Shown piece by piece: positions 8,886 through 51,700 of a DNA stretch of 64,000 nt (position 1 is the first letter of the stretch; each line of letters begins with the position of its first letter). The DNA is from Elusimicrobia bacterium GWA2_56_46 (GTDB lineage: Bacteria > Elusimicrobiota > Elusimicrobia > Elusimicrobiales > UBA9959): NCBI GenBank assembly GCA_001799575.1, contig MGTT01000020.1:62001-126000 (forward strand). Direction: 5' to 3'. The notes under the pieces are model-generated. The model did not search any database. It was not told where the DNA came from and worked only from the letters and a program-made list of their open reading frames with translations. The position numbers were made by a program, and so were the translations under genes.

Positions 8886-8910
8886 AAAGAATTTCCTGTT
8901 TTTTGCGCCG

Positions 8911-9135
8911 CTACTTCTTCTCAAACCCTTCTATCGGGTTGATGCACTTTCTGTCGGCGTACACCTTTTTCTTGTATTCGACGACCTTATCCACCACTTC
9001 CTGCACCGAGTCCTTTACCAGGTACCGGTTGCCGGTGGCCAAGCTCAGCACGGTATCGGGAGAGGCCTCCACGCTTTCTATAAGTTCGGCGTTGACCACT
9101 ATCTCCGTGCCGTTCAATTTGCGGAGTTTTATCAT
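8911..9135 (-). CDS. flbD: FlbD/SwrD family protein
   Basis: A 74-residue protein starting [20 protein letters not shown], with [20 protein letters not shown]: the FlbD/SwrD signature. In flagellated bacteria it sits before motA and raises stator output (SwrD in Bacillus). Its ATG overlaps the MCP stop codon by four bases, and motA follows, so the flbD-motA-motB order of flagellar operons is kept even though no filament genes are present here. Confidence 0.92.
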
Positions 9136-11483: not shown

Positions 11484-11496
11484 AAACAGGAAGCCC

Positions 11497-12099: not shown

Positions 12100-12110
12100 A
12101 TAAGACCTCT

Positions 12111-12713
12111 TTACTTTTTGCAGGCCGCGGCCAGGAGCTCCAGCGTTCCCGGCGTGGGCAGCAGAAAGAACTGCCCCACTATGTCGTTGTCCGCGATACC
12201 CTCGAACTTCATTTCGATTATCAGCAGCTCTTCCGCCTTTTCGGCCATCTCTATAAGCACCAGGTCGATCACGGCCCCCAGCATATCCACGCTGCACTTG
12301 GGAACGGAGATCAGCAGCATCTGATCCAGCACCTTTCCCAGCGCGCGAACGAATGAGCCGGCCACGATATTGCCTATCTCGCAAAGAACGCTCATGTCGA
12401 ATTCGCTGAGCTCCGGGCTTTTCTCGACCCTGGCCATAATTTTATCCACCAGGGGTATTGCGTCCTTCTCGGGGAACGTAAGCAGAAAACCTCCGCCAAG
12501 AGCGCCCGCCAGCCGGCAATAGACGCCGGCCACCACGGTCGAGGGGCCTCCCATGACGGCGGCCGCCTCCGAGATCTGAACCACCTTTATGCCGGCGATC
12601 TCCACCGCTATCTTCCGGCCCATCATCTGCTCAAAAGCGGTCACCGCGTCCCTGCCGGCGTCAACCACTATTTTCCTTATGGCTTCCGTGTAGACCACGG
12701 CAAACTTGTCCAT
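12111..12713 (-). CDS. CheC-like paralogue with one intact active site
   Basis: A 200-residue paralogue of CheC. By eye the first motif is lost (EAIRKIVVDAGRDAV, with Lys and Val at the Glu and Asn places), while the second (VLCEIGNIVAGSF) keeps Glu and Asn. This resembles CheC forms or FliY/CheX relatives with one working site, and suggests division of labour with the complete CheC next door. The ATG at 12713 has GGGGAA upstream. FliM/FliN-type domains are absent, so it is not FliY. Confidence 0.82.
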   Translation of the reverse strand: MDKFAVVYTEAIRKIVVDAGRDAVTAFEQMMGRKIAVEIAGIKVVQISEAAAVMGGPSTVVAGVYCRLAGALGGGFLLTFPEKDAIPLVDKIMARVEKSPELSEFDMSVLCEIGNIVAGSFVRALGKVLDQMLLISVPKCSVDMLGAVIDLVLIEMAEKAEELLIIEMKFEGIADNDIVGQFFLLPTPGTLELLAAACKK

Positions 12714-15853: not shown

Positions 15854-17644
15854 TTATATCCAGAGCGAAATATCCAGAATCAGAACCACGGAGCCGTCGC
15901 CCAGGATCGTGGCTCCTGAAAACCCCCTGGCGCGCTTGACTATCCCCGTGAGAGTTTTGACTACGATCTCTTTCCTGCCCAGGAAATTATCCACCACCAT
16001 GCCGGCCGACTTGGTGCCAGACTCGAAAACAAGCACATATTGCGTCCCGGACTCCGCCCGGGCGGCCGCGCGGGTATTCGCTCCCAGCTTTTTATCGAGC
16101 CTGATAAGGGGGATCACCCTGTCCCGGAACACCACTACTTCATTGCCGCCTATGCTCTTTACGCTGTCCGGGGAAAGCGGAACGATCTCCGTTATATTGT
16201 TGAGCGGGATCGCGTAGATCTCGTTTTTCACCCTCACCATAAGAGCCGAGATGATGGCCAGCGACAGAGGCAGATGCAGCACGAAAGAGGAACCCGCCCC
16301 TTTCTGCGACCTTATGGCCAGCCGGCCGTTGAAAGATTCTATCATCGTCTTCACGGCGTCCATGCCGACGCCCCGGCCGGAAATATCGGTAATGGTTTCA
16401 GCCGTGGAGAATCTTGAGTCGCAGATGAGGCCGAAAGTGTCCTCGTTCGACATCGTGCGCGCCTGCTCCTCCGTTATCATCCCGAGGGACACCGCTTTTT
16501 TCTGGATCAGAACCGGGTCAAGACCCTTGCCGTCGTCGGAAACCTCTATGAGGATAAAGCCCCTTTCCCTCCTGGCCCCGAGCGTCACTTTTCCCTTGCG
16601 AAGTTTTCCTTTCTTCTCGCGCGCCGCCGGAAGCTCCACTCCGTGGTCTATAGCGTTGCGCAGCAGATGAACCAGCGGCTCGTTTATCTCGTCAAGCAGC
16701 AGCCTGTCGATGCCGATATCGGCGCCGTAGATCTCAAATTCAATGTCCTTCTCCAGCTTCCTGGCAAGATCCCTGACCATCCTGGGATATCTGTCGAAAA
16801 CCTGCGAAACCGACACCATCCTGGTCTTTAAAACCGCTTCCTGCAGATCTATCGCTATCCTGTCAAACTCCTGGAGGGTTTCCGTAAGCTCGTCTATCTT
16901 ATGCCTGCCCGAGATCTGTTCGAGCTGGGATTTGCTTATGACCAGCTCGCCCACCAGGTTCATGACCACGTCCAGATAAGAAGTGTTTATCCTTACGTGC
17001 GTAGTCTTGGTCTTTTTTTCCGCTTCCGGCGCGGCCGCCGCCGGGGCAATCCCGTCCTGCTTAGCTCCGGCGCCTCCCGGGGCTTCAAAAGGACGTGAGC
17101 CCGCTAAATTATCATCAGGCGAGGCAGACTCGTCCTGCCCGGCCTGAACCGCCGCGTCGGCCTGTTCCGCCCGCTCCTCTCCGGCAGCCTGCTCCTCCGG
17201 CGCCGGCGGCGCGCCGGGTTCTTCCGGTTCCGCCGCCGCGGGAGCCGCCGGCCCTTCCTCGCCTATAAGCGCGGCCAGCCGCGCGACAAGCCTTTCCACG
17301 TCCGATTTGGCCTCGGCGCCGGTATCGATCTCGTCCACCAGCTTGCTGAGGGCGTCAAGGCACTCAAAAAGGACGTCCAGAGTGTCGCCCTTGGCGGAAG
17401 CCTCGCCCTTGCGCAGTTTATCGAAAACGTCCTCCATCTTGTGGGTAAGATGGGTTATCTTGTCGAACCCCATGGTCGCGGCCATGCCTTTAAGGGTATG
17501 GGCCACGCGGAAAATATCGCTCAGGACGTCCTTGTTGGCGAGATTTTTTTCAAGTTCCACAAGGGCCGTGTTCAGAGCCGCAAGGTACTCCCTGGCCTCG
17601 GGAACAAAAACTTCCTTGAATTGGGAAAGATCCGATTCATCCAT
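15854..17644 (-). CDS. cheA: Chemotaxis histidine kinase CheA
   Basis: A 596-residue kinase: HPt domain with phosphorylated His49 (VAHTLKGMA), a long Ala/Glu/Pro linker (about 130-215) in place of a recognisable P2 domain, the P3 dimerisation helices (about 218-280), the ATPase (N box LLRNAIDHGVE, G1 VSDDGKGL, G2 GRGVGMDAV) and a CheW-like C-terminal domain. It couples the receptors to the CheY and CheB proteins of this operon. The ATG at 17644 overlaps the cheB stop by eight bases, consistent with translational coupling. The missing P2 is a mild deviation seen in other phyla. Confidence 0.96.
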   Translation of the reverse strand: MDESDLSQFKEVFVPEAREYLAALNTALVELEKNLANKDVLSDIFRVAHTLKGMAATMGFDKITHLTHKMEDVFDKLRKGEASAKGDTLDVLFECLDALSKLVDEIDTGAEAKSDVERLVARLAALIGEEGPAAPAAAEPEEPGAPPAPEEQAAGEERAEQADAAVQAGQDESASPDDNLAGSRPFEAPGGAGAKQDGIAPAAAAPEAEKKTKTTHVRINTSYLDVVMNLVGELVISKSQLEQISGRHKIDELTETLQEFDRIAIDLQEAVLKTRMVSVSQVFDRYPRMVRDLARKLEKDIEFEIYGADIGIDRLLLDEINEPLVHLLRNAIDHGVELPAAREKKGKLRKGKVTLGARRERGFILIEVSDDGKGLDPVLIQKKAVSLGMITEEQARTMSNEDTFGLICDSRFSTAETITDISGRGVGMDAVKTMIESFNGRLAIRSQKGAGSSFVLHLPLSLAIISALMVRVKNEIYAIPLNNITEIVPLSPDSVKSIGGNEVVVFRDRVIPLIRLDKKLGANTRAAARAESGTQYVLVFESGTKSAGMVVDNFLGRKEIVVKTLTGIVKRARGFSGATILGDGSVVLILDISLWI

Positions 17645-18659
17645 AATATTTCTCCACGGCCGCGGCTATTTCGGAAGCGGGACGGATCTGGTCGTAAAAA
17701 CCGGACTTCACCACCGCCGCCGGCATACCGGAATAAACGCCGGCGCTGGACTCGGCCTCCACTATCACTTTCCCCCCGTATTTTTTTACCACCTCCGCCC
17801 CTTTCACGCTGTCGCAGCCCATGCCGGAAAGAACCACCAGCACGGTCTGCGACTTGAAAGCCTCGGCGCAGGAAATTATCACCCTGTTTATATCCGGCTG
17901 GATATGTCCCTTGTAATCCGTAAGATCCGCCACCGCGCCTTTCTTGGTCCTGAACAGCTCAAGAGTGGAGTTCGTGGGGGAAAAAAGCATCCTTCCCGCG
18001 AAAAGAATGTCCCCCTTGACCGCGACTTTAACCTCCAGCGGAGTTATCTTCCCCACATGCTGGGCGAAAGAATTTATAAAGTACGCCGGCATATGCTGGG
18101 CCACCACCACTCCGGCAAAAAAATTCTTTGAAAAATTCGCGGCCACTTTGTAAAGCGAAACGGGCCCGCCGGCCGACGTCGCTATCACCACCCCCTGCAT
18201 GGCGGGAAACCGGGCCGGAGAATGGATCACCTTCACCGCGGCGGCCTTATATTCCTCCAGCCGCGCCCTGTCTATCCTGGAGGCGGCTTTCACTTTCTCC
18301 ACAAGTTCCCGCCCTATCTCAGCGAGAGACTTTGAAGCGTCGGGCTTCAACACCACGTCCACCACGCCCAGCGCGAAGATCCCCCGCATGATATCCGCGT
18401 TCCTCACTCCCACCGAACTGACCACGATTATGGGCGTCGGCCTGAATTTAGAGATCTGTTCAAACACCCAGGTTCCTTCGGAACCGGGCATGATGATATC
18501 GGAAACCACTACATCCGGCTCAAGGGATAAAAGCTTTTCAACCGCCTCTTTCGCTCCGCCCGCCTCGCCCGCCACCTCGATCTCCGGATCGCAGGACAGA
18601 AGCTCTTTCAGCACCGTCCTTATGAACACGGAATCTTCGACCAGCAGTACCTTTATCAT
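17637..18659 (-). CDS. cheB: Chemotaxis-specific protein-glutamate methylesterase CheB
   Basis: A 340-residue protein: receiver with phosphoacceptor Asp54 (VVSDIIMPG), linker, and methylesterase domain with the expected Ser (IATSAGGP), His (VAQHMP) and Asp (SGMGCDS) motifs. The nucleophile loop reads SAGG instead of the more common STGG, and GMGCDS instead of GMGxDG; both are tolerable changes. It demethylates receptor glutamates, opposing CheR encoded just upstream. Confidence 0.95.
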   Translation of the reverse strand: MIKVLLVEDSVFIRTVLKELLSCDPEIEVAGEAGGAKEAVEKLLSLEPDVVVSDIIMPGSEGTWVFEQISKFRPTPIIVVSSVGVRNADIMRGIFALGVVDVVLKPDASKSLAEIGRELVEKVKAASRIDRARLEEYKAAAVKVIHSPARFPAMQGVVIATSAGGPVSLYKVAANFSKNFFAGVVVAQHMPAYFINSFAQHVGKITPLEVKVAVKGDILFAGRMLFSPTNSTLELFRTKKGAVADLTDYKGHIQPDINRVIISCAEAFKSQTVLVVLSGMGCDSVKGAEVVKKYGGKVIVEAESSAGVYSGMPAAVVKSGFYDQIRPASEIAAAVEKYYG

Positions 18660-18666
18660 TTTAAAA

Positions 18667-19044
18667 TCAGACCGTCATGCCCAGCGCCTGGCCCACCACT
18701 TTCATAAGCTCTTCGGCTTTTACCGGTTTGGTCACAAAGCCCTTGGCGCCCACGGAAATAGATTCCTGCACTATTTTTTCCTGCCCCATGGCCGACACCA
18801 TTATGACCTTGGCGGAAGGATCGCAGGCCACTATCCTCTTAACGGCTTCAAGCCCCACGGCTTCCGGCATTATCATATCCATCGTCACAAGATCGGGCTT
18901 GAGCTTATTGTACTGCTCCACCGCCTCCTCCACGTTGGCGGCCTCTCCTATGACCTGGTGCTGCCCTTTGGATCCTTTTTCCAGAAGATTTCTGAGCGTA
19001 AGACGCATAAATTTGGAATCGTCAACCACCAGAATTTTAGCCAT
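18667..19044 (-). CDS. cheY: Chemotaxis response regulator CheY
   Basis: A 125-residue single receiver with DD pocket (residues 8-9), phosphoacceptor Asp56 (VTMDMIMPE), Ser in MVSAMG and Lys in TKPVK. GGAGAG precedes the ATG. Its start overlaps the end of cheR by eight bases. This is the best candidate for the regulator that acts on the motor; the usual target FliM is not in the window, so it may bind another rotor protein. Confidence 0.93.
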   Translation of the reverse strand: MAKILVVDDSKFMRLTLRNLLEKGSKGQHQVIGEAANVEEAVEQYNKLKPDLVTMDMIMPEAVGLEAVKRIVACDPSAKVIMVSAMGQEKIVQESISVGAKGFVTKPVKAEELMKVVGQALGMTV

Positions 19045-19912
19045 GGCACTCTCCTTTCCCGTAGATTCTCTCGTCGCTGTTGTAAAGAAAAAACTTGTCC
19101 TTGAAATTGGCGGTAAACAGGACTTCGGATTTCCCCATCACAAGAAAGCCGTCGTCCTTAAGGGCCGCGTGAAAGGTCTGAAGAAGCTTATCCTTGGACT
19201 CGGTCTTGAAATAGATGAACACGTTCCTGCAGAGTATGAGATCCAGTCCCGACGCGGGCGCGGGCTCGTCGAAAAAATTATGCTTTCTGAAACGAACCAG
19301 CGACTTGACCGAAGGCTCCAGCTCGAATTTAGCCTCCGGGCCGTCCCCGATCCGCTTGAAATACCTGGCCACGTACTCCGCCGGGGCGGTGGCCAGCGAA
19401 GCGGCGCCGTAGATCCCGCTTGCGGCCTTCTCCAGGGACAGATCGTCTATATCGGTCGCGATGACAACCGGGACGAAAGACTGGCGCGCGCCGGCAAGCT
19501 CCCTGAGAAGGATCGCCAGACTGTAAGGTTCCTCGCCCGAAGAGCAGCCGCAGGACCAGATATTCAGGGCGGGCGCGCCCGCCGGGCCCGGCCGCTTTCC
19601 GTTTGCGGCGGGCCGCTGCAGCTTCGCGATTATTTTGGGGAGGACATCTGTCCTGAGGATCTCCCACATTTTAGCGTCCCTGAAAAACTGAGTCACGTTC
19701 ACGGTAAGGGCGTTATAAAGCTCCCTGGCTTCCGCTCTTACCGTCCCCAGTATCTTTATATAGCCCTCGTAATCGGCCGGGGCCAGGCCGTTTGACAGAA
19801 GCCGGGAATTAAGCCTGCGCTTTATGTAGGGTTCGTTGTATTTGCGGCAATCAAGGCCGGTTTTATCGAGCGTAAGCGCCAGAAGTTTTTCAAAAGATGT
19901 TTTGCTTTCCAT
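19037..19912 (-). CDS. cheR: Chemoreceptor methyltransferase CheR
   Basis: A 291-residue S-adenosylmethionine-dependent methyltransferase. The N-terminal helical domain (INRRL-like YIKRRLNSRL) and the SAM loop (WSCGCSSGEEPYSLAI) are clear, followed by LILCRNVFIYF, a CheR hallmark. There is no TPR extension. It methylates the glutamates of the MCP. No good ribosome site is visible before the ATG at 19912, so the start is by family length. Confidence 0.94.
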   Translation of the reverse strand: MESKTSFEKLLALTLDKTGLDCRKYNEPYIKRRLNSRLLSNGLAPADYEGYIKILGTVRAEARELYNALTVNVTQFFRDAKMWEILRTDVLPKIIAKLQRPAANGKRPGPAGAPALNIWSCGCSSGEEPYSLAILLRELAGARQSFVPVVIATDIDDLSLEKAASGIYGAASLATAPAEYVARYFKRIGDGPEAKFELEPSVKSLVRFRKHNFFDEPAPASGLDLILCRNVFIYFKTESKDKLLQTFHAALKDDGFLVMGKSEVLFTANFKDKFFLYNSDERIYGKGECHG

Positions 19913-19956
19913 TATCTATTTAAACCGAAACCAGTGACCCGCTCAGCGTTTTGTTT

Positions 19957-20454
19957 TTATTTCTCCCTGTCCCCGCCGCCCGCGGCGCCGGCCGCGTCCG
20001 CCAGCTCGGCCTTTTCCGGATCGTTAAAGATCTTCCCGAGATTAAGCAGGATCACCAGGAGTTTGCCCACTTTCGCCACCCCTGAAAGATATTCCGAGTC
20101 TATGGAAGCCAGGGAGGGCGGGATAGGATCTATCTGCTCGCCGGAAACCTGCAGAACCTCCGAAACTCCGTCCACCACAAGGCCGACGGTCTGGCCGACG
20201 GCGTCGGCGACGACTATCCTGTTCTTATCGGTCCGTTCTTTCCGGCCCAGGCCGAAGCGTCCTCTGAGGTCTATCACAGGGATTATTCTGCCCCTCAGAT
20301 TTATCACGCCCTCTATGAACCCGGACGCTCCCGGCACGCGGGTTATCTCCGGCAGGCGTATGATCTCCTGGATCTGGGTTATCGGCACACCGTACTCTTC
20401 CGAGGAAAGACTGAATACCACCAGCTGCTGAATATTTGTTTTATTTTCCGCCAT
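19957..20454 (-). CDS. cheW: CheW adaptor, second copy of a tandem pair
   Basis: A 165-residue CheW that links receptors to CheA. GGGAG lies before the ATG at 20454. It is nearly identical to the upstream copy through the first 130 residues, including LVVFSLSSEEYGVPITQIQE and the VINLRGRIIPVIDLR core. The C-terminal tails differ (Ala/Gly-rich here). This points to a recent tandem duplication with both copies kept. Confidence 0.94.
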   Translation of the reverse strand: MAENKTNIQQLVVFSLSSEEYGVPITQIQEIIRLPEITRVPGASGFIEGVINLRGRIIPVIDLRGRFGLGRKERTDKNRIVVADAVGQTVGLVVDGVSEVLQVSGEQIDPIPPSLASIDSEYLSGVAKVGKLLVILLNLGKIFNDPEKAELADAAGAAGGGDREK

Positions 20455-20482
20455 GATTCTCCCGTCCGTCCGACTATCGCCG

Positions 20483-20968
20483 TCAGACCTTGTTTTTTTC
20501 CCTGGCCGCCACTCCGGACACCGTTTTTTCAAGGTCGTTCAGCAGTTTCGCCAGGTCGAGAAGGATCACCAGAAGCTTGTCGATCTTCGCCACCCCTGAA
20601 AGATATTCCGAGTCTATGGAGGACATGGAGGGCGGGATGGGATCTATCTGCTCGCCGGAGATCTGAAGAACCTCCGAGACTCCGTCCACCACAAGGCCGA
20701 CGGTCTGGCCGCCGGCGTCGGCGACGACTATCCTGTTTTTCTCGGTCCGCTCTTTCTGCTCCAGACCGAAACGTCCCCTGAGGTCTATCACGGGAATTAT
20801 CCTGCCGCGCAGGTTTATCACGCCCTCTATGAACCCGGGCATCCCGGGTATGCGCGTGATCTCGGGCAGGCGTATGATCTCCTGGATCTGGGTTATCGGC
20901 ACACCGTACTCTTCCGAGGAAAGACTGAATACCACCAACTGCTGGATCCCGGTTTTATTCTCCGCCAT
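20483..20968 (-). CDS. cheW: CheW adaptor, first copy of a tandem pair
   Basis: A 161-residue CheW preceded by GGGGAGGA. It has the same two-barrel CheW core as its neighbour, with substitutions such as Gly-Met for Gly-Ala at IPGMPGF. The Lys-rich C-terminus ends just upstream of the second copy. Two CheW proteins may allow different array geometries or receptor classes. Confidence 0.94.
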   Translation of the reverse strand: MAENKTGIQQLVVFSLSSEEYGVPITQIQEIIRLPEITRIPGMPGFIEGVINLRGRIIPVIDLRGRFGLEQKERTEKNRIVVADAGGQTVGLVVDGVSEVLQISGEQIDPIPPSMSSIDSEYLSGVAKIDKLLVILLDLAKLLNDLEKTVSGVAAREKNKV

Positions 20969-20981
20969 ATTCCTCCCCCTC

Positions 20982-21359
20982 TTACATTTTTATCCCAAGA
21001 ACCGTTTCCACCACCGCCGTCAATTCTTCCACCTCGAACGGTTTATGAAGACAGTGCCTGGCGCCCATTTCCCTGGCCTTTCCCTCTACCTGCCGATCCG
21101 GATCAGAATCGCTGCCCATCATCATCACGAACAGCGCCGCTTTCGCCGCCGGAAGCCTGCCCAGAACCTCGTCTCCGTTCATCTTAGGCATATGATTGTC
21201 GCAAAAGATCAGGTCGTACGAAGCGGCCTGGGCCATCCCGAGCCCCTCCTCTCCGTTATAAGCCGACTCCACATTAAACCCCAAAGGCTCAAGAATGAAC
21301 CGGAACATATCGTGAAACCCGCGTTCATCGTCTATAACCAGCACTCTTTTCGGCGGCAT
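20982..21359 (-). CDS. CheY-like response regulator, first gene of the che operon
   Basis: A 125-residue receiver: acidic pair at 10-11, phosphoacceptor Asp54 (IFCDNHMPKMNG), conserved Lys in LHKPFE. The Thr/Ser switch position is in an odd context (MMMGSDSD). It has no output domain. It is 13 bases upstream of the first cheW and probably the first gene of this operon; the AT-rich stretch at about 21445-21475 upstream could hold a promoter, but the match is weak. Confidence 0.88.
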   Translation of the reverse strand: MPPKRVLVIDDERGFHDMFRFILEPLGFNVESAYNGEEGLGMAQAASYDLIFCDNHMPKMNGDEVLGRLPAAKAALFVMMMGSDSDPDRQVEGKAREMGARHCLHKPFEVEELTAVVETVLGIKM

Positions 21360-21496: not shown

Positions 21497-23815
21497 TTAG
21501 GATTTTTCCGGTTTCAGCGCCCACTTCATCCGTTCCGGGAAGGATTTCTCCAGGCGTTTGTATCTCTCAAGTTCGGCGGAAACGGCCGCCAGCCGCGTCT
21601 GGTTCGCCTGCGCCTGTTTTGCCGCGGCATCCCGGGCAAGGGCCGAATTCTGCTTTTCCACTTCGAGCCGGCGCACAAGATCCTCGGCCCGAGATTCCAG
21701 CTCCTGGAGCTTCTGCCTGAGGGAGGGCAGCTCCGCTTCCAGGCCCGCGCGGTTTCCGCTTTCGGTTTTGAGCGCCTGCGCCAGCCCGGCTAACTCCTGC
21801 TCGCGCGAAGACCTGGCGGCCAGAGCCGCGTCCAGCTGCGCCCTGACCGACGAATATTCGGCGTTGAGGCGGGAAAGTTCGGTTCCGAGCCGGGCACGAT
21901 CCCCGTCCATGGCGGCAAAGCGCTTCTCATAATCGGCTTTCACCGCCGTGAGAGAATTCACCTGCGCCTCCAGCCGCCCGTGCTCCGCGGCCAGGGCCGC
22001 CCTGGCGTCCTCGGCTTCCTTGCGGCTGAACGCGAGCCTGGCGTCAAAGCGGCGGATCTCCTCGCCGCTGCGCCTGGATTCCGCTTCCAGGCGGCCCTTT
22101 TCTTCCTCGGCCCGGGCCTTGGCGGCCCTGAGCGCGGCCAATTCGGAGAGATATTCCCGTTCCAGCTCTTTCTTGACGCCGGCCCTGATCTCGCCGGCCT
22201 CGGCCTCATATTGCGCCAGCTCTTTCTTCACTCCCGCGCGGATCTCCAGCACCTCCGCCTCATATTGCCCGCGCAGCTCCCGCGTCCGTTCTTCAAGCGC
22301 GGCGGCCGCCTCGGCCCTGGTTCTCTCCAGTTCCAGGCTGTGCTTCGTCTCAAGGGCCGACAGCTCTTCCCGGCTTTTTTTGCCGGCCGCCATAACCTCG
22401 GCCTGAAGGCGGCGCTGCAGGTCGGCCAGCTGGCGGGCATGCTCCTCCGCGAATTCGGCGGCATGATTATTTTTAAATTCCTGGATCTCCGCCTGCTGCT
22501 TCTTCGCAAGGCCCTCAAGTTCCGCCTGGTGGGCCGCTTTTATAGCCTCGGTCTCGGATCTGGATTTTTTGGCGTCTTCTATATTCGACGCTATAGCCTG
22601 GGCCAGCTGCATCTTTTCCAGGCGCAGGGCCTGGCGCTCCTTCTCAAGCACGGCGTTGATGGCCTGCACCCGGGAAATAAAACCTTTCAGCTTTACCAGT
22701 TCCGAAAGAGCGCGGACTTTCTCTCCGGAGGTTTCGGCCAGGGCTTTTTCTTTTTCCTGCATAGCCGCTTCGTGGCGCAGCTGCAGCTTTCCCAGCTCCT
22801 CGTCCTTCTCGGAGTTCTTGCGGTCGGCGATGGCGCCGATCTCGGACTGGAGGCGCCCGATCTCTTTCTGCATCTTATCCACTTCAAAACGGAATTTTTC
22901 GTCGGCCAGTTTATTTTCGTTATGCGCTTTTTCCTCGCGGGCGCGCAGGACGGCGTTCTCGGCCCTCATGTCGGCGAATTCCCTCTCCCGCTCCGGCACG
23001 TTCTTGATATAGGACTCGATGGAGGCTTTTTCCCGGTCTATTTTGGCCACCTCGTCCCTGAGCCTGGAGATCTCTCTGGCCTGCATCTCCTTTTCCATGG
23101 CCGCGCGGCGGAATTCATCCTCCACTTCGCGCAGCTTTTCCGCGCTGGATTTCAGGGAACGAACCTCGTCCTCTTTCTGAGAAATCGTCCGCTGCCACAA
23201 AGCTTTCTCTTCCAGCCAGCGGCGCTCCATTTCCTGCAGCCGGTAAATAAAGTGGCCTTCCACGTCCTTGGACTGGGTCTCGCGCTCCTGGATCTGGCCT
23301 TTCAGGGTCTGCATCCAGGTCTCGCGCTCCTGCACGAGCCGGGCTTCCAGGTCTTTCACTTTGGATTTTAGCGTGAGGCGCTCTTCCTGCGTTTCCTGTT
23401 CGTGCCGGTCGCGGCGCAGCTTCTCCTGGATGTCTTTCAGCGAAGACTCCACCTTGGAGGAAAGGGCCTCGTCCTGCTGGTTCTTTAAAGCGGCCAGGAG
23501 GGCTTTCTCTTTTTCCTGGGAGACGACTTTCTCCATCTCGACTATCTTTTTTTCAAGCTTGTCTTTATCCTCTTTCAGCCTGGCAGATTCCTCGGCCGAG
23601 GCATCCCGCTGGGGCGGGCGCGAAGAAAAAGGCGCGGGAGCGGAAAGGCCCGGGGGCTGGGCGAACGGAAGGCCCGGCGCGCCGCCGGGAAGAGGCGGCA
23701 AAACCGGTTTCCCCCCGCCCGGCATCGGGGGCGGAGGAGAACCGGGTTTCATAAAACCCGGTGGTATCGGGGGCAGACTCTTCTTTTTCTCCTCTTTATT
23801 ATCGCTGTCTTCCAT
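21497..23815 (-). CDS. Long coiled-coil protein with Pro-rich N-terminus (module 1)
   Basis: A 772-residue protein. Residues about 12-70 are Pro/Gly-rich (PPIPPGFMKPGSPPPPMPGG), the rest is almost unbroken coiled coil rich in Glu, Lys, Arg and Ala. There is no signal peptide or membrane segment, so it is cytoplasmic. AAGGA before the ATG at 23815 decides the start; a TTG at 23833 is weaker. It follows the FliF-FliG fusion, where fliH would lie in a flagellar operon, and could be a filament or scaffold under the rotor, compared loosely with AglZ or FrzS in Myxococcus. The length far exceeds FliH. Function is inferred only from context. Confidence 0.8.
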   Translation of the reverse strand: MEDSDNKEEKKKSLPPIPPGFMKPGSPPPPMPGGGKPVLPPLPGGAPGLPFAQPPGLSAPAPFSSRPPQRDASAEESARLKEDKDKLEKKIVEMEKVVSQEKEKALLAALKNQQDEALSSKVESSLKDIQEKLRRDRHEQETQEERLTLKSKVKDLEARLVQERETWMQTLKGQIQERETQSKDVEGHFIYRLQEMERRWLEEKALWQRTISQKEDEVRSLKSSAEKLREVEDEFRRAAMEKEMQAREISRLRDEVAKIDREKASIESYIKNVPEREREFADMRAENAVLRAREEKAHNENKLADEKFRFEVDKMQKEIGRLQSEIGAIADRKNSEKDEELGKLQLRHEAAMQEKEKALAETSGEKVRALSELVKLKGFISRVQAINAVLEKERQALRLEKMQLAQAIASNIEDAKKSRSETEAIKAAHQAELEGLAKKQQAEIQEFKNNHAAEFAEEHARQLADLQRRLQAEVMAAGKKSREELSALETKHSLELERTRAEAAAALEERTRELRGQYEAEVLEIRAGVKKELAQYEAEAGEIRAGVKKELEREYLSELAALRAAKARAEEEKGRLEAESRRSGEEIRRFDARLAFSRKEAEDARAALAAEHGRLEAQVNSLTAVKADYEKRFAAMDGDRARLGTELSRLNAEYSSVRAQLDAALAARSSREQELAGLAQALKTESGNRAGLEAELPSLRQKLQELESRAEDLVRRLEVEKQNSALARDAAAKQAQANQTRLAAVSAELERYKRLEKSFPERMKWALKPEKS

Positions 23816-23906
23816 ATAAGTCCTTGTCTTCAAACCTCGCTCATATTCTAGAAGTCGGGCGTTTCATTTTAGTTAAGTAATTGTTAACAGGCTGTTTAAC
23901 TATCCA

Positions 23907-23971: not shown

Positions 23972-25909
23972 CTACTTCCCCGCCTGCTGCTTGAAATTAT
24001 TCAGCCACTCCGTCACCGCCGGATCGTTGGAAAGCTGCGCGTACTTTTCATAGGCCTGGATGGCCTCCTGCGAGCGCCCGAGGGCGTAATAAGCCGAACC
24101 AAGATACTGGTGAACGGCGGCCTGGCCGGCATCCAGGCTCGCGGCGTATTCCAGGTACTGAAGACTTTCTTCGTAACGGCCCTGGTTGTAAAAGTCGGCC
24201 CCGGCGGCCAGATATTGCTGGGCCTGGCCCGCGGCCCCGGGGGCGGCGGCCGGCTCCTCCGGCTTTTTGGAGATATTCTGAAACTTCGCCATGCGCTGGG
24301 CCTCGCTGGACAGATCGGAGCCGTCTATGATGTCTATTTCCTGCGAGCTCTGCTGGCGCACGCTTATCTTTCCCTCCACCTCCAGGCGCTTGACGGCGTC
24401 CAGCACTTTCATCTGCGCCTCGTCCACCTGCACGGGGGTGAGCTCTCCGGCGTATTCCATGATCTCCTTGATGGCGTTTACGGTGCCCGCCGACATATTC
24501 GTAAAGAACTTGTTCACGATCTGGGGATCCACTTTGTACACGGCCTTGGCGATGTCCTCGATGCTGATGCTTCTTATCACCACCTGCGTATCCTTGTCCG
24601 GGAAACCGGCGATATCCTCGAATGTCAGCACCTTTCTCTTCACTTTTTCATAGATCTCCGGCTTCTGGGTCTTCAGGTATTCAAGGATGTTCTTCCTGAT
24701 GGCCGGTTCCGCGTCCTCCAGCATCCTGGCGAACTTCTCTATGCCGCCCATGACGAAATCTATGTTTTCCTTCACTTCCTTGTCTATGGCCTTGATCTGC
24801 TCCCGGCTGGCCTGTTTCACCGTCAGGGATTCCATGGCCACCTTGGACTGCATTTCCACGGTCAGCAGGGAAAGCACCTGCCGCGCCAGCTCCGGCTTTA
24901 TATAATTCAGGATCAGGGCTATGACCCAGGGCTCCTCTTTTCTCAGCAGGAACAGGTAGATGAGTCTTTTCAGGTTCTCTTCCGTTATATAGGTAAAGGG
25001 CTCAAATTTCTTCATAAGTTCGTCCTCATCTTCCTTCTCCGGCTCTTTCTGAAGCAGATTCATATCTATCTGCTGGTGCCCCTCCTGCACGCCCTCGCCC
25101 TTTCCTCCGCCGGCGCCCGCCTCCATCTTCTGGTCTATGCTGACCTCGGCGCCGGGCTTGGACACAAGGGCCTCGACATACTTCCGGAAAAATCCCCACA
25201 GCGGGCCGAACAGGAAGAACAGGAACAGCAGGAACAGGAGCGCGTATAAAAGCGGCAGATAAACGCCGGGGCGTTTCAGATCGTCCAGCACATTATAACT
25301 TTTAAATCTGGTGGGCTTGAAAAGGACGGTCGGCTCGTCCCGGCCTTTTATCTTGTAGGGGATCAGAAACTCTCCGACCCTGCCCCTGGCCACGGCCACG
25401 GTCGCGCTGGAGATCTTGTCGTCGTATATGACCGTGACCTGGAACCTGTTGATCTCGGTCTGGACGCCGTAGCGCACCTCCTGTATGCCCTTGCCCTGCT
25501 GGGCCTGCTGCCCCTGGGCCGCCTCCGGCCGCTTGGTTTCCCCTCCCAGCACGGATTTGGGCTTGGGTACGCCGGGCAGAAGAAAATCGGTGTTATTGGA
25601 ACTGCCGGTGCCCGGCTTTTCCTTGTATTTCTGCAGGATACCGGTGCCTTCTTTGGTCTGCTCCGCCCTCCTGGAAATTATATCCAGTTCCACATCCGCG
25701 AACACAAAAGATTTTCCGACGCCCATTATGGGATCAAGGATCTCGCCCTTGATCTTGGTCTCCGTCTCCCTGCGCAGGGAGTCCTGTTTCTCCATGAGAG
25801 AAATATCCATGGTGTCGGCCCCGCTGAGCGCGGCCGGGTGCGCGGAATGCAGAATACAGAACGCAGAGTATAGAATGGCGCGAAAAACTATGGCGGCAGG
25901 TGCTTTCAT
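23972..25909 (-). CDS. FliF(beta-collar)-FliG-TPR fusion protein (module 1)
   Basis: A 645-residue protein. Residues 1-28 look like a signal peptide. Residues about 45-185 match the third ring-building (beta-collar) part of the flagellar MS-ring protein FliF: GEILDPIMGVGKSFVFADVELD, a disordered LLPGVP insertion, then VRYGVQTEINRFQVTVIY. A membrane helix spans about 217-240. Residues about 303-518 match the FliG middle and C-terminal domains (EEPWVIALILNYIKPELA, VLTFEDIAGF, FFTNMSAGT). Residues 562-640 hold about two TPRs. FliF ring domains 1 and 2 and the first FliF helix are missing. By eye, several charged torque residues of FliG are changed. Likely a periplasm-to-cytoplasm rotor subunit acting with MotAB. 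A fusion this compact is unusual; the domain calls need profile searches. Confidence 0.82.
   Translation of the reverse strand: MKAPAAIVFRAILYSAFCILHSAHPAALSGADTMDISLMEKQDSLRRETETKIKGEILDPIMGVGKSFVFADVELDIISRRAEQTKEGTGILQKYKEKPGTGSSNNTDFLLPGVPKPKSVLGGETKRPEAAQGQQAQQGKGIQEVRYGVQTEINRFQVTVIYDDKISSATVAVARGRVGEFLIPYKIKGRDEPTVLFKPTRFKSYNVLDDLKRPGVYLPLLYALLFLLFLFFLFGPLWGFFRKYVEALVSKPGAEVSIDQKMEAGAGGGKGEGVQEGHQQIDMNLLQKEPEKEDEDELMKKFEPFTYITEENLKRLIYLFLLRKEEPWVIALILNYIKPELARQVLSLLTVEMQSKVAMESLTVKQASREQIKAIDKEVKENIDFVMGGIEKFARMLEDAEPAIRKNILEYLKTQKPEIYEKVKRKVLTFEDIAGFPDKDTQVVIRSISIEDIAKAVYKVDPQIVNKFFTNMSAGTVNAIKEIMEYAGELTPVQVDEAQMKVLDAVKRLEVEGKISVRQQSSQEIDIIDGSDLSSEAQRMAKFQNISKKPEEPAAAPGAAGQAQQYLAAGADFYNQGRYEESLQYLEYAASLDAGQAAVHQYLGSAYYALGRSQEAIQAYEKYAQLSNDPAVTEWLNNFKQQAGK
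25842..25876. repeat. Five degenerate heptads inside the signal-peptide coding region
   Basis: GCGGAAT, GCAGAAT, ACAGAAC, GCAGAGT and ATAGAAT run in 7-bp register (plus-strand reading). They encode the hydrophobic core ILYSAFCILHSA of the FliF-FliG-TPR signal peptide on the minus strand. Confidence 0.65.
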
Positions 25910-25964: not shown

Positions 25965-27536
25965 TTATTTCACCTGCTTCAGGAACTGCCTGACTATGCT
26001 GTTGTTGGGATTTATCTCCACGACCTTTTCCCACATAACCCGGGCTTTCTCTTTCTGGTCCATGAGGAAGAAAGCGCTGCCCATGATCTCAAGCGCGGTC
26101 TCGTTATTGGGCTCCAGATCCAGAATGTCCTGGGCGCGTTTCATGGCAAGGTCGTACTTGCCGTCGTAGATGGACTGCCTGGCGTCGTAGGTTCTCTGAT
26201 CGATATAGGTGAAGATCTCCGGGCCCTCGGGCTTGCGGGTCGGCTCCGAGACACTGGCCTCTTTCTCTATCATGTTGAGCAGCGAGAGCAGCCTGTCATT
26301 CTTGGGATCCTTGTTGAAAGCGTGCCGCAGGATGTTGACGGAATTCCTGAGGTCTTTGCCGTCCACGTAGGAGATGATGCCCCTCCTGGTGAGGGTGGGC
26401 ACTTCTTCCCCGCCCGTGGCGTCCGGCACGAATTCCACGGCGGTCTGCAGGCGGTTGAGCATATTCTTGACCTCGGCGTTGCCCGGGTCGGCGTCCATGG
26501 CCGATTTCAGTTTCTCTATGGCCCTGGTGAAATAGCCGGATTTGAAGTACTGGAGGGCCTGACGGACGATCTCGCGGATCTCGCGGTCGTGCTTGGCCTT
26601 GTTAGACTGGCCCATGCGCATGGTGACCGAGAACCTGGTGGTGGAGCCGAGCGCGTGCACGCCCTGCGCCAGGTCGAAGCCGAAATTCTTGTACTTTATG
26701 CCCAGGCCGAAGTCCGCTTCCTGGATGGCGGGAGAGCCCTGGACGCCGAAGCGGATGGCCGACCAGTACAGGAGCCAGTATTCTCCGCCGAACCTCCAGT
26801 TCATCCCGGCGCCCTGGGGTTTGGCGGCGTCCAGCCCGAACACCAGGCTGCCCTTGAACAGGCTCAGGGCCTGGCCGAACTTGAGGGTCAGCGGCAGTTT
26901 ATCGTCGGTGTCTCCGGAAGACATGGAAACCACGTTCTGCGCGCCCATGGCCACCCGGTAGAGCTTGGAGAACTTGTGGAGCATGGTGATGTCCACGGCG
27001 TTAAAAGAGTCCTTGGAAGTATCCAGCGAGCGGGAGATATTCTTTACCATGACGCCGAAAGAAAGCTTGTCGGAAACGTCCCGGCCCCAGGAGAAAGCCA
27101 GCGCCCGTTCCACGCTGTCGAAGCTGCCGAGGGTCTTGACGGACATGATATCGGGGCTGGAGGGATCCACGGTGATCGAAACCTTTTCAAAACCGACGCT
27201 CTTGAGCTGGGTCATGCTGACGGCCCACGTGCCGTTGGAGGTGGTGGGGTGGGCGTAGGTGAAGAAAGAAAGGGTGGTGTCGGCGAACAGCGTGGCCTGC
27301 ATCGCGGTAAACTCTTTCCTGGTCAGCAGGGTCAGCGCAGCCGGGTTCCAGTAAGAGGCGGAAGCGTCGTCCGCCACGGCGAAAAAAGCCCCGCCCATGC
27401 CGAGGCCGCGCGCGCCGGCGCCATAAGCCATGAACTGCCCGGGCTGGCCGCCGGATTGCGCAACGAGGGATGAGGGATGAAGGATGAGGGATGAAAACAG
27501 GAAAATGGAAAGCCCCGCGGCGGAAACAAAGCGCAT
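25965..27536 (-). CDS. PorV/PorQ-family outer-membrane protein with C-terminal TPRs (module 1)
   Basis: A 523-residue protein. The signal peptide starts MRFVSAAGLSIFLFSS. The following 320 residues have the PorV/PorQ (UPF0164) beta-barrel pattern: GARGLGMGGAFFAVADDASA and YWNPAAL near the N-terminus, ending in an aromatic strand. The last 180 residues are periplasmic TPR-like helices (LDLEPNNETALEIMGSAFF). PorV-type barrels carry type IX secretion substrates in Bacteroidota; whether that applies here is open. An ATG at 27599 would add 21 residues, but it lies between the riboswitch and a small hairpin. It is 55 bases upstream of the FliF-FliG gene and shares its promoter. Confidence 0.85.
   Translation of the reverse strand: MRFVSAAGLSIFLFSSLILHPSSLVAQSGGQPGQFMAYGAGARGLGMGGAFFAVADDASASYWNPAALTLLTRKEFTAMQATLFADTTLSFFTYAHPTTSNGTWAVSMTQLKSVGFEKVSITVDPSSPDIMSVKTLGSFDSVERALAFSWGRDVSDKLSFGVMVKNISRSLDTSKDSFNAVDITMLHKFSKLYRVAMGAQNVVSMSSGDTDDKLPLTLKFGQALSLFKGSLVFGLDAAKPQGAGMNWRFGGEYWLLYWSAIRFGVQGSPAIQEADFGLGIKYKNFGFDLAQGVHALGSTTRFSVTMRMGQSNKAKHDREIREIVRQALQYFKSGYFTRAIEKLKSAMDADPGNAEVKNMLNRLQTAVEFVPDATGGEEVPTLTRRGIISYVDGKDLRNSVNILRHAFNKDPKNDRLLSLLNMIEKEASVSEPTRKPEGPEIFTYIDQRTYDARQSIYDGKYDLAMKRAQDILDLEPNNETALEIMGSAFFLMDQKEKARVMWEKVVEINPNNSIVRQFLKQVK
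27465..27492. repeat. Four tandem heptamers within the PorV-TPR signal peptide
   Basis: GAGGGAT, GAGGGAT, GAAGGAT, GAGGGAT (plus-strand reading) encode part of the signal-peptide core SSLILHPSSLVAQ on the minus strand. The unit is the same as in the 19-copy array at 51701. Gain or loss of one copy would shift the frame. Confidence 0.75.
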
Positions 27537-27572
27537 AACGCGCTTAACGGTTTCCCATATAGCCAGCGGGGC

Positions 27573-27592
27573 AAAAGCATTAGATATAATGC
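27573..27592 (-). terminator. Small hairpin with U-tract after the riboswitch
   Basis: GCATTA-TATC-TAATGC followed by TTTT on the minus strand, 16 bases beyond the aptamer and before the preferred start at 27536. It could be the expression platform, though the 6-bp AT-rich stem is weak. Confidence 0.4.
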
Positions 27593-27607
27593 GTTTCATT
27601 ATGTTTT

Positions 27608-27690
27608 TCGGCAGCCTGACCCCCGCATACGTCGCGGGTCTTGGCTTTGCGCCGCCGGCTTTCGCCGGCTTTGCTATTATCGTAACACTC
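27608..27690 (-). promoter_or_regulatory. Cyclic-di-GMP-I (GEMM) riboswitch
   Basis: The minus-strand RNA contains the GEMM core: GCAAAGCC, then the P2 stem GCCGGC-GAAA-GCCGGC with its GNRA tetraloop, CGCAAAGCC, the P3 stem GACCCGC / GCGGGGGUC, and AGGCUGCC at the 3' side. The bases equivalent to G20, A47 and C92 of the Vc2 aptamer are G, A and C, which predicts c-di-GMP rather than cGAMP binding. It lies about 30 bases after a canonical promoter and before the PorV-TPR, FliF-FliG and coiled-coil genes, so it should set their expression according to c-di-GMP. Confidence 0.93.
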
Positions 27691-27727
27691 ACGTATTACA
27701 AATACGTTAACTATTTATTCCCAGTAT

Positions 27728-28584: not shown

Positions 28585-31500
28585 CTACTTCGCCAGCTTA
28601 TCCCCTATGCTCCTGGTCTCCGGATCCAGCTGGGCAGCCCGGTCGGCGAAGACCTTAACATCGTCCTTTTTGCCGAGTTTTACCGAGGCGCGGGCCGCGT
28701 TCAGCCAGATATTGGCGTCGTAAGGGTCGGCCTTGGCCGCCTTGAAATAATACTCCCTGGCGTCCTGGTACTTCCCGGCCTTGAAACTCAGATTGCCCAG
28801 ATCGTTGAGCGCGGCCGCGTTAACAGGATCTTTCTCCAGCACCTTTCCGAAGTATCCGGCCGCTTCCCCGGCCTCGCCGTACTGGGCAGACACTATGCCC
28901 AGATTGAGGTTCGCGTCAACATCCTCCGGACTTTCCAGCAGAATGGCGCCATAATACTTTTTAAAATAATCGTAGCGGGCCTTGAGCATACCCGCGGCGC
29001 CTTCCCTGACGCGCGCGCTGAATCTGGCCCGATCCGGATTGTTTTCCGCGTCCGACTCGGGCAGGGTCACAGGCTCGAATTCCAGCCAGGCGGTTCGCAC
29101 GTCCACGACTTTCACGTCGGCGGCCATGCTCCGGTAAAGACCGGCTTCGTGCTTCACTGAATCATAGAAAGACTGGCCCAGCATGGTGGTTTCCACTCCG
29201 ACCCAGTAAGTGTTTCCGTACTTTATCAGGTACTCCTCGGGGATCCCCACGTCCCGCGCGTCGGTGGCGCCGGTATCGAACATCAGCGCTATATGCGTGG
29301 GATAATCCAGGATCGCGGCGTGCAGGCCCGAGGCTTCGAAGATGGAGGCGAAGAGCGCGGTCAGATCGTCGCAATCCCCGCTCCTCAGTTTCAGCGTGTT
29401 CCTCGGGAACTGCACCGTGTCCGTGGTAAAGTTCTTGGAGGATTTTTTGACCGAATAGGGGCTGACCGGGTCGGCCAGGTAGGCTATCCCCTCCTCTCCC
29501 AGGCCCTCCCAGATCATGAGCGCGGACAGCACGTCGCCGTTCAGCAGGGAGTACTCGTCCTGGAACTTGTTCTTTTCGTTCAGGACGAAGCGGCTGAAAC
29601 CGAAAACCGGCGTATCCTTGGGCGTGATGAAGTTGGCCAGCCTGTCGGCTTTGTCCCAGATGATGGCGTTCTTGGACAGGACTTTCACCGGCTTATTCAG
29701 CGTAAAAGTCTTCTCGGCCCCGTCCTGATAATAAGCCATGGTGAGCTGGCACTGTATAGGGGTATCCTCGTTGATGTTCAGAATGCGGTTATTGAGGGTG
29801 GCCATCAGATCCACCTGCGCCCTGGCGTGGGGAGCTATCTCCTTGACAATGGTGTCGGACGGGAAATCCATGAAGTCCTTCAGGAAGAACGACACTTTGA
29901 CGTTGCTGAAAGCGCTCTCGGTGTTATTCTGCACCGCGATGCGGCCGATGGGATTCTTCATGTAATATTTGTAGTTCGCGGAAAAGACATAACTGAGCTC
30001 CACGGGCACGATCTCCATGGGAGCCACGTTTTTGGACGCCGGCCCGGACTCTTCCGCTGCGGCCGCCACGGCCTGCCCGGCTTGCGGCCCTTTGACGTAA
30101 ACGGCCAGCGGGGAGGAGCGGACGCCGGTATCGCCGGTCACGGAAACTCCGGCCACGGCGTAATAATAGGTGCTGTCGGGAAGCAGCGAAGAATCCGCGT
30201 ATTCCGGTTTGTCCGCCGTCCCCAGCTGCCGGTACTCCCCGTTCTCCGAATCGGCCCTGAAGACCGCGAAATTTTTCAGCCACGGCGTCTTATTCGCCTG
30301 CCAGGAAACCACCGCCCCGGCATCGTCGGCGGAGTATTTGAGGTCGAAAGGCGCTTCCGGCATATATGAGATCGCGAAAGCCAGGATCTTGCCACTGGCG
30401 AAATCGGAAATATAAACTTTATTGTCGGCGACATTCAGATATTGCGGATCCGCCAGTTCCCGTTCGCCGGCGCCTTTGGAGAAAAAACTTGAAATATATT
30501 TACCCTGGTCGTCGAAGATCTTTACGCTGTACGCGCCGCGGTCCAGAATATAGAAATAGCCTTTCCCGTCGTAATCTATGGCGGCCGGATCCTGCAGGAG
30601 GCCGGAATCGTCCCAGACGCGCAGCAGCTTGCCGCCGGCGTCCGTGACTATGACCTTTTTTAAGGCCGAGTCCAGGATGTAAAGGTTCCGGGACTCATCG
30701 GTGCGCACGCCCACGGGTTTCTGCAAAGCGATCTTGCCCACCGCCGGGCCGACCGCGAAAAGGAAAACGCCGTCGGAATTAAAAGCCTGCACGCGTTTAT
30801 TCCCGGTGTCGGCCACATAGACAACGCCCTTGGAATTAACGGTGAGCCCCGTAGGATTATCGAATTTGCCCTCCTTGAGGCCGCCGGACATAAAGCCGGC
30901 CTTCTCGCCGAACGAGTTGGCATAAGTCCCGTCCGCGTTGAAGATCTGCACGCGGCTGTTGCCGGTGTCGGAAACATAAAGCAGGCCTTTTGGGTCCACG
31001 GCCAGTCCGCGCGGATTCTTCACCTGTCCCTGCTGGTCGCCGCTGCGCATAAGCGTGGTTTTTTTGCCGGCGGCGTCCAGCAGTACCGCCTCCCTGGTCT
31101 CGGGCAGCCAGGCGGCCACGCTCAGATCGGGCCGCACGGAGAATACATCGCTTTTACAGGAGTATTTTTTGACCGGGCCCTTGAGATTAAAGCGGCCCAG
31201 AGGCTGGGCTTTGGGCAGCGCGGCGGCCGGATGCTCGCCCTCTATCCTGATGACGGTGATCTTCTTATTGCCTTCGTCGGCCAGATACAGGAGGCCGGCG
31301 GCGTCTATCGCTATGCCGCGCAGTTTTAAAAATTCGCTCTTGCCCTTGCCGCGGGTGCCGAAAGCGCCCAGGATGTCCCCCGTCCGGGAAACTTCGCGTA
31401 CCTTTCCCTCCCTGGCGTTTACGATATAGAGCGCGCCATAGGCGTCCACGGCCACTCCGTCATTGGCCAAAGAATATTCCTTAACCACGTTACCCACCCT

Positions 31501-32085
31501 GTCATACTTCACGATGAGGGAATTATCCGGATCGGAAACGTAGATAAAACCCGCGTTATCGGACGCGATCCTGCCCGGATTCAGCCTGGTAACCTTATCG
31601 GCTTTCGTGACGGGGAAGCCGTAGAGAAAGATGCCGTCGGAGTTGAAAACCTGCACGCGGGAATTGCCGGTGTCGGCCACGTAAACCCGGTTGTCGGGCC
31701 CTAAAACCACGTCCAGCGGAGCGTCCAGCTGGCCGGGAAGCGAGCCGTCCCCGGAGAAAACCCACAGAAACGCGCCGTCCGCGTCCAGCACGATGATGCG
31801 GGAATTGCCGGTGTCGGCCACATAGATCCGGCCGCCGCCCGAGCTCAGGCCGTTGGGTTCTTTAAGGGGGGCGGAACTTTTTTTGAGGAGCTTGCCTTCG
31901 GAATCGAAGATAAACACCGCGTTGGCCTTGGAATCGGCCGCGAGTATCTTCCCGTCCATGACGGCCACGGCCGAAAGCCGGGTCAAAGCGGGGTTGGAGA
32001 TCTGGGTCTTGAATTCTATCTTGTCATAAGCGCGCAGCTCCGCGCTGAAAAAAAACATAACGGCTGAAAATAGTATTTTAAACAT
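28585..32085 (-). CDS. Secreted NHL-repeat / FN3 / transglutaminase-like / TPR protein
   Basis: A 1,166-residue protein. After a signal peptide (MFKILFSAVMFFFSAELRA) come about ten NHL-type beta-propeller repeats (IYVADTGNSRIIVLDADG and similar, to about residue 560), an FN3-like segment, and a transglutaminase-like core with Cys905 (RSGDCDDLTALF) and His931 (YPTHIALMF). Residues about 1055-1155 are TPRs. GGAGG five bases before the ATG at 32085 fixes the start; the frame stays open across sdhC but that part is not coding here. The propeller suggests binding of peptidoglycan, polysaccharide or protein. It is the first gene of the leftward cluster that leads to the PorV/FliF-FliG module, with its own promoter. 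Confidence 0.85.
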   Translation of the reverse strand: MFKILFSAVMFFFSAELRAYDKIEFKTQISNPALTRLSAVAVMDGKILAADSKANAVFIFDSEGKLLKKSSAPLKEPNGLSSGGGRIYVADTGNSRIIVLDADGAFLWVFSGDGSLPGQLDAPLDVVLGPDNRVYVADTGNSRVQVFNSDGIFLYGFPVTKADKVTRLNPGRIASDNAGFIYVSDPDNSLIVKYDRVGNVVKEYSLANDGVAVDAYGALYIVNAREGKVREVSRTGDILGAFGTRGKGKSEFLKLRGIAIDAAGLLYLADEGNKKITVIRIEGEHPAAALPKAQPLGRFNLKGPVKKYSCKSDVFSVRPDLSVAAWLPETREAVLLDAAGKKTTLMRSGDQQGQVKNPRGLAVDPKGLLYVSDTGNSRVQIFNADGTYANSFGEKAGFMSGGLKEGKFDNPTGLTVNSKGVVYVADTGNKRVQAFNSDGVFLFAVGPAVGKIALQKPVGVRTDESRNLYILDSALKKVIVTDAGGKLLRVWDDSGLLQDPAAIDYDGKGYFYILDRGAYSVKIFDDQGKYISSFFSKGAGERELADPQYLNVADNKVYISDFASGKILAFAISYMPEAPFDLKYSADDAGAVVSWQANKTPWLKNFAVFRADSENGEYRQLGTADKPEYADSSLLPDSTYYYAVAGVSVTGDTGVRSSPLAVYVKGPQAGQAVAAAAEESGPASKNVAPMEIVPVELSYVFSANYKYYMKNPIGRIAVQNNTESAFSNVKVSFFLKDFMDFPSDTIVKEIAPHARAQVDLMATLNNRILNINEDTPIQCQLTMAYYQDGAEKTFTLNKPVKVLSKNAIIWDKADRLANFITPKDTPVFGFSRFVLNEKNKFQDEYSLLNGDVLSALMIWEGLGEEGIAYLADPVSPYSVKKSSKNFTTDTVQFPRNTLKLRSGDCDDLTALFASIFEASGLHAAILDYPTHIALMFDTGATDARDVGIPEEYLIKYGNTYWVGVETTMLGQSFYDSVKHEAGLYRSMAADVKVVDVRTAWLEFEPVTLPESDAENNPDRARFSARVREGAAGMLKARYDYFKKYYGAILLESPEDVDANLNLGIVSAQYGEAGEAAGYFGKVLEKDPVNAAALNDLGNLSFKAGKYQDAREYYFKAAKADPYDANIWLNAARASVKLGKKDDVKVFADRAAQLDPETRSIGDKLAK

Positions 32086-32110
32086 TGGATCCTCCGCTCT
32101 TTCTACCCCA

Positions 32111-32138
32111 ATTATAGTTAATATGGGCGCGAAATCAA
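32111..32138 (-). promoter_or_regulatory. Promoter for the NHL/TPR gene
   Basis: TTGATT (32133-32138, minus strand), 16 bases, TATAAT (32111-32116). The predicted 5' leader is about 20 bases and includes the GGAGG ribosome site. Confidence 0.75.
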
Positions 32139-32268
32139 ATGCGGTATTAGAAATTTTAAATCCCCTTTTAGATTTTCTACTGCCTCCTGCCCCCTTGTAA
32201 CTTATAGAATAAGGGCTGGGGAGGATTTTTTTATCCGAGCCGGATAATGACTTTAAGGAAGCCAATCT

Positions 32269-51681: not shown

Positions 51682-51700
51682 GATCCTCATATAGCACACT

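Follow-up and report, generated by a model that had tools for sequence, protein, structure and literature searches.

The window, by which the whole stretch of 64,000 nucleotides is meant, belongs to the genome assembly of an environmental bacterium of the phylum Elusimicrobiota, which is 2.66 Mb in size and 98.8% complete. The gene under study spans exactly positions 23972-25909 of the minus strand (645 codons) and is predicted to encode a fusion of parts of the flagellar rotor proteins FliF and FliG. It lies in a cassette with genes for an outer-membrane protein, chemotaxis proteins, and a MotA-MotB pair, and a second cassette with a fusion of the same kind is present in the window, as listed below.

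7161..7952 (-): MotB, with a plug/transmembrane segment containing the conserved Asp (ADLMTELVCFF) and an OmpA peptidoglycan-binding domain
8070..8924 (-): MotA of the flagellar type, not ExbB/TolQ (PDB MotA at 6e-51; Pfam)
9132..10412 (-): methyl-accepting chemotaxis protein
10929..11513 (-): CheD
11497..12384 (-): CheC/CheX-like phosphatase
12766..14988 (-): FtsA/PilM/MreB-like actin-fold ATPase of 740 aa, extended by an additional C-terminal region and situated among the chemotaxis genes
15854..21359 (-): chemotaxis genes CheA, CheB, CheR, two CheW, and CheY
21497..23833 (-): 778-aa protein with a Pro-rich N-terminus and a long coiled coil, conserved beside rotor genes of the T-type (the clade of the target, described below)
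23972..25909 (-): the target, a FliF(RBM3)-TM-FliG(M+C)-TPR fusion of 645 aa (Pfam, PDB, family profile, structural model, hydropathy); signal peptide ~1-30, RBM3 ~33-205, transmembrane helix (TM) ~213-243, FliG_M 321-384, FliG_C 411-516, TPR 567-632
25965..27692 (-): PorV/PorQ-family (UPF0164/FadL-like) outer-membrane protein with a TPR tail, adjoining the rotor gene (NF033709 at 1.3e-30, above cut-off; Pfam UPF0164 and TPR)
28585..32220 (-): large protein with an NHL propeller and TPRs, encoded upstream of the PorV/TPR gene
46763..47503 (-): protein with a coiled coil, encoded downstream of the second fusion
47493..48995 (-): second FliF-FliG fusion, 500 aa, without TPR (PF08345 at 7e-5, FliG_M at 1e-12, FliG_C at 2.5e-9)
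49052..49996 (-): histidine kinase of the second cassette
50062..51705 (-): PorV/PorQ-like and TPR protein of the second cassette (NF033709 at 2.1e-23; its 83.4 bits fall short of the cut-off of 90)
51841..63867 (-): giant Kelch/fn3 protein, 4008 aa within the window and a 6998-aa open frame in the genome

The two CheW genes are very similar and stand in tandem (19957-20968, minus strand) with an overlap of about 50 bases. In a relative from another class (locus L108), an FtsA-like gene likewise neighbors CheC/CheD and a T-type rotor gene.

The FliG part of the target was recognized directly. Pfam placed FliG_M at residues 321-384 (2.2e-11), FliG_C at residues 411-516 (1.1e-23), and TPR at residues 567-632, and the top natural match in the PDB was the FliG-MC structure of T. 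maritima, aligned over residues 303-525 at 5e-29. A hydropathy scan revealed a hydrophobic N-terminal segment and a single strong transmembrane segment at about 213-243. The FliF part was not detected in the single-sequence Pfam search, which left residues 30-300 without any match, and the N-terminal regions of 17 family members were therefore aligned as a profile. The six top PDB matches of this profile were all FliF chains, the best at 1.5e-9 (9yh6), with RBM3 aligned from end to end. In addition, the FliF C-terminal domain PF08345 matched eight of 18 family members (best 2.2e-10), and the profile recognized the true FliF proteins of two flagellated relatives, G030 and G215, at 5e-12 and 4e-5, respectively. 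An AF2 model of residues 30-252 showed the order helix-strand-[insert]-strand-helix-strand-TM, and its ten top PDB matches in Foldseek were all FliF, each weak on its own (E 0.006-0.03). The beta-collar insert (~82-146) remained without a confident model. The AF2 model of the whole protein was of low confidence (pLDDT 63, pTM 0.26), so that only the order of secondary structures and local matches were used.

Several parts of the flagellar proteins were missing. No YscJ-like PF01514 domain (RBM1/RBM2) was found in the target or its genome, TM1 is also absent, and the only trace of FliG_N was a weak PF14842 match that overlaps FliG_M and does not form a separate domain. The FliM-binding motif EHPQ reads EEPW. 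In the torque helix of FliG, the two acidic residues that many relatives keep as E-E read E-I in the target (one residue being non-acidic) and E-Q in the second fusion of the window. Because of the FliG matches, the FliF matches of the family profile, the Foldseek result, and the recognition of true FliFs, the target is identified, at the level of sequence, as a fusion of FliF RBM3 and TM2 with FliG M and C that lacks RBM1, RBM2, TM1, and FliG_N. The original prediction had read the protein as a signal peptide, a FliF collar domain (residues 45-240, taken as RBM3), one membrane helix, a FliG M/C region (residues 300-520), and TPRs, and would have been refuted had profile searches found no FliF or FliG; the searches found both, and the domain reading was borne out.

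A chance open reading frame was ruled out, since orthologues at 53-73% identity are full-length and free of stops. Contamination was ruled out as well, the target family being present in most genomes of its taxonomic family.

The genome contains five FliG_C genes, all FliF-FliG fusions: the target, the second fusion of the window, and one on each of contigs C2, C6, and C16. Among the loci fetched from the phylum, the order RBM3 then FliG-MC was found in 68 distinct members. A tree of the FliG-MC region separated three clades, namely the T-type (41 rows, mostly with a TPR tail), the B-type (15 rows), and the 16-type (10 rows), outside of which fell one long unplaced row and three flagellar FliGs of the phylum. 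The tree is unrooted, some of its forks are weakly supported, and the three flagellar FliGs are too long-branched for rooting. One genome (G037) also encodes a 346-aa FliG-MC and TPR protein without RBM3 or TM (L057, 9335-10375, minus strand), with a full fusion elsewhere. Histidine kinases are embedded between the PorV-like and motor genes of B-type cassettes (L051, 7398-8339; window, 49052-49996).

Proteins of the outer-membrane side also accompany the fusions. The cassette membrane proteins matched the PorV/PorQ profile NF033709 at 1e-30, 2e-23, 4e-46, and 7e-22, two of them exceeding the curated cut-off. The genome has 20 matches to type IX sorting domains. Among them are the C-terminal type A domains on the giants of the C20 (the second window cassette), C2, and C16 cassettes, the one of C20 lying at 51856-52101 in the giant Kelch/fn3 protein. 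No sorting-domain match was found in the NHL/TPR neighbor of the target cassette. Among relatives, sorting-domain-like C-termini were present on all 10 giants tested beside fusions (TIGR04183, 2.8e-7 to 5e-3; four above cut-off).

A search with PF14349 (SprA_N) returned no match and was also silent in every control genome, and TIGR04189 was then used to search for SprA-like genes. An SprA/Sov-like gene was found away from the cassettes (G000 C9:32518-33012; L125 ORF 1-5388, minus strand), matching TIGR04189 at 3e-41 but with 140.7 bits, below the NCBI cut-off of 200. A protein of this kind, of about 1800 aa, is encoded in 129 of the 150 genomes of the phylum that were searched, the present one among them, and in every case scores under that cut-off. 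Type IX secretion has been called confined to Bacteroidetes by some papers. The SprA-like gene adjoins two genes that look, by appearance only, like LptF/LptG.

With a motor, PorV-family proteins, and sorting-domain giants combined in the cassettes and an SprA-like gene in the same genome, FliF-FliG and MotAB could conceivably power export of the giants through the SprA-like translocon, in the role of GldLM/PorLM, instead of moving proteins at the surface. The search for GldM fits such a role, as it gave no clear match and only three weak ones in 150 genomes; however, it was silent in the control genomes and is a weak negative. The chemotaxis genes beside the T-type cassette suit movement more than secretion. 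SprA-like genes are also found in many genomes without FliG_C, for example in most of one family (f2), and a type IX-like pathway is therefore not generally dependent on this motor. Because these genes are so widespread without FliG_C, the movement of surface proteins is favored over secretion, which is kept as an unlikely alternative.

The pairing of the fusions with MotA and MotB is well supported. The MotAs associated with fusions aligned best with MotA/PomA structures across their length, and the Asp motif of MotB was present in 41 of 46 cases. Each fusion clade is paired with its own flagellar-type MotA, where clade and strand agreed in all 23 adjacent pairs (MotA within 8 kb). For at least 62 of the 95 MotA_N matches, a FliG_C match is found no more than 8 kb away. 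In a sample of 248 Elusimicrobiota genomes, 63 encoded both MotA_N and FliG_C, 29 only FliG_C, one only MotA_N, and 155 neither; hence FliG_C was present in 63 of 64 MotA_N genomes (Fisher p 6e-35, uncorrected for relatedness). In relatives, the T-type cassette runs unidirectionally from the giant protein through the PorV/TPR protein, the fusion, and the coiled coil to MotA and MotB. In the genome studied here the chemotaxis genes separate the coiled coil from MotAB, and all of them are encoded on the minus strand. The distance of about 15 kb between the T-type fusion and MotAB is as originally claimed, and the direct succession of MotA-MotB in relatives supports, on gene order, a stronger link of rotor and stator than could be seen from the window alone. 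MotA adjoins the fusion on contigs C6 and C16, and no MotA stands alongside the second window cassette or the C2 cassette (the C2 contig is short). The 16-type cassettes of relatives often have two MotB-like genes and a TPR protein after MotA (L052, 8137-11110; L076, L090, L091, L094, and L114). A clostripain-family peptidase gene adjoins the C16 cassette.

Those cassettes without an adjoining MotA, together with the failure of several members to keep the acidic pair of FliG_C (the two fusions of the window included), would be compatible with a static or signaling ring that acts as a scaffold or polarity marker and no longer generates torque, with MotAB serving another task. The type-matched adjacency in 23 of 23 pairs, the co-occurrence of MotA_N and FliG_C among genomes, and the retention of a full-length MotA and of a MotB with both its Asp motif and OmpA domain all weigh against this, and such a ring is considered improbable. 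The fusion and MotAB are instead read, with high though not full confidence, as rotor and stator; formation of the ring and its rotation are inferred and rest on no experiment.

The genome itself shows no sign of a flagellum, as separate FliF, FlhA, and FliM/FliN (FliMN_C) were not found at its 98.8% completeness. The target is thus not a spare paralogue beside a flagellum, a finding that would have overturned the original prediction. FliG_C was found in 92 of the 248 phylum genomes. FlhA, for flagellar export, and a clear FliMN_C, for the switch, occurred in the same three of the 248. Only two of these three also have FliG_C, and in the other 90 FliG_C genomes no FlhA, FliM, or FliN was found. 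The flagellated relatives G030 and G215 encode FliF and FliG at full length in two distinct genes, FliF with both of its Pfam domains and FliG with FliG_N. G215 has a flagellar locus (separate FliF, FliG, FliMN, FlhA, MotAB, and Che genes) in addition to a T-type fusion cassette (L063, L129, and L062), and thus offers a natural comparison of the flagellar and fusion motors. The view that the fusion is left over from a lost flagellum or is a spare paralogue of flagellar genes, to which the clear FliF and FliG homology, the flagella of three phylum genomes, and the coexistence of both forms in G215 might point, is scarcely tenable given open reading frames that are intact phylum-wide, three clades with conserved partners, the 90 of 92 FliG_C genomes without FlhA/FliM/FliN, and the position of the separate flagellar FliGs outside the fusion clades (in an unrooted tree with long branches). 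The proposal of a reduced rotor that works with MotAB and without a filament is accordingly upheld, rotation itself excepted, which remains an inference; the five paralogues (one more in the window), the spread through the phylum, and the PorV-type and sorting-domain giant companions go beyond it.

In a scan of one genome collection, matches to the target occurred only in Elusimicrobiota. Among 72,556 plasmid records, no place covered 80% of the query, and the annotated matches among those listed were flagellar FliG. The literature searched, which was limited to open-licence PMC papers, yielded neither a naturally occurring FliF-FliG fusion nor a description of this system, and no experiment, culture, or image of it was found. 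The components are known and their combination was not found within the same literature; other phyla were outside the search except for plasmids.

The most plausible reading, to which a probability of about 0.6 is assigned, is a ring driven by MotAB whose torque reaches surface proteins anchored in the type IX manner, probably for gliding under the control of chemotaxis. The target would be a subunit of a reduced rotor, its signal peptide sending RBM3 to the periplasm, where a ring would form as in FliF, its one TM helix spanning the inner membrane, and its FliG M-C part forming a covalently attached torque ring in the cytoplasm. The covalent joining of FliF to FliG is proposed to make FliG_N, the FliF tail, FliM, and FliN unneeded. 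MotA5-MotB2 stators, held to the peptidoglycan by the OmpA domain of MotB, would push the FliG_C ring using an ion gradient, and the periplasmic ring may hand torque to the PorV-family/TPR outer-membrane protein and its giant partner with a type IX-like sorting domain. Surface proteins would thereby be moved, resulting in gliding or surface attachment, and the five parallel cassettes might each act on surface proteins of their own. The T-type cassette may be under chemotaxis control, given the MCP-CheABCDRWY genes alongside. As FliM and FliN are absent and EHPQ is replaced by EEPW, CheY, if it controls direction or speed, must do so at another site; purely in speculation, the FtsA-like ATPase or the coiled-coil protein could be involved.

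What can be read from the DNA comprises the predicted domains, the absence of the flagellar parts tested, the type-matched adjacency of MotA, and the PorV-family and sorting-domain neighbors. Gene neighborhood alone underlies the inferred output to surface proteins of the type IX kind. Transfer of torque through the periplasm, with gliding as its result, is likewise inferred, and its chances are regarded as even. Ring assembly is not guaranteed, since RBM1, RBM2, and TM1 are missing. The E-I pair of the target, the distance of MotAB from the T-type fusion, and the lack of a sorting domain in the NHL neighbor also count against the favored reading, as do the second window and C2 cassettes without a neighboring MotA, the presence of SprA-like genes where FliG_C is missing, and the score of the SprA-like protein below its cut-off. 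A categorically new machine would be a rotor and stator of the flagellar type that lack export gate, C-ring switch proteins, and filament and that move giant surface proteins, anchored in the type IX manner, for chemotactic gliding, in several parallel copies throughout a phylum. Whether the system is such a machine can be answered only tentatively, with the balance slightly on the negative side. If true, this would link the family of flagellar motors with the surface biology of type IX systems in a phylum most of which is uncultured, and structural studies would gain a naturally occurring minimal rotor that does without FliM/FliN.

Among known systems, the type IX/gliding machinery of Bacteroidota (GldLM, SprA, PorV, and SprB) shares PorV/PorQ-family proteins, sorting-domain giants, a putative SprA-like translocon (below the NCBI cut-off here), and an ion-driven motor of the 5:2 type. 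In contrast, the motor in Elusimicrobiota is MotAB with a FliF-FliG ring, and GldM was not clearly detected, which is a weak negative. The Agl-Glt gliding system of Myxococcus (AglRQS) is similar in that it operates without a flagellum and its surface proteins are believed to be moved by a MotA-family motor. AglRQS is not known to have a FliF/FliG rotor. AglRS has been grouped with generic ion transporters, separate from flagellar stators (PMC12505986).

The flagellar rotor and stator share with the fusion system the FliF RBM3 and TM2, FliG_M, FliG_C, a stator of the MotA/PomA type, and a MotB that has the plug, the Asp, and the OmpA domain, as well as chemotaxis genes, which here stand next to the T-type cassette. 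The fusion system differs in that FliF and FliG are joined, RBM1/RBM2, TM1, and FliG_N are lacking, and FliM/FliN and the FlhA export gate are absent from the genome, while its partners are PorV-family proteins and sorting-domain giants and it occurs in several paralogous copies. A parallel in architecture is an engineered FliF-FliG deletion fusion of Salmonella without FliF_C and FliG_N, which retained rotation (PMC6445934). In both, FliF is joined to FliG and the FliF C-tail and FliG_N are dropped, although the Salmonella construct is laboratory-made and operates in an otherwise complete flagellum, with the full periplasmic FliF and with FliM/FliN.
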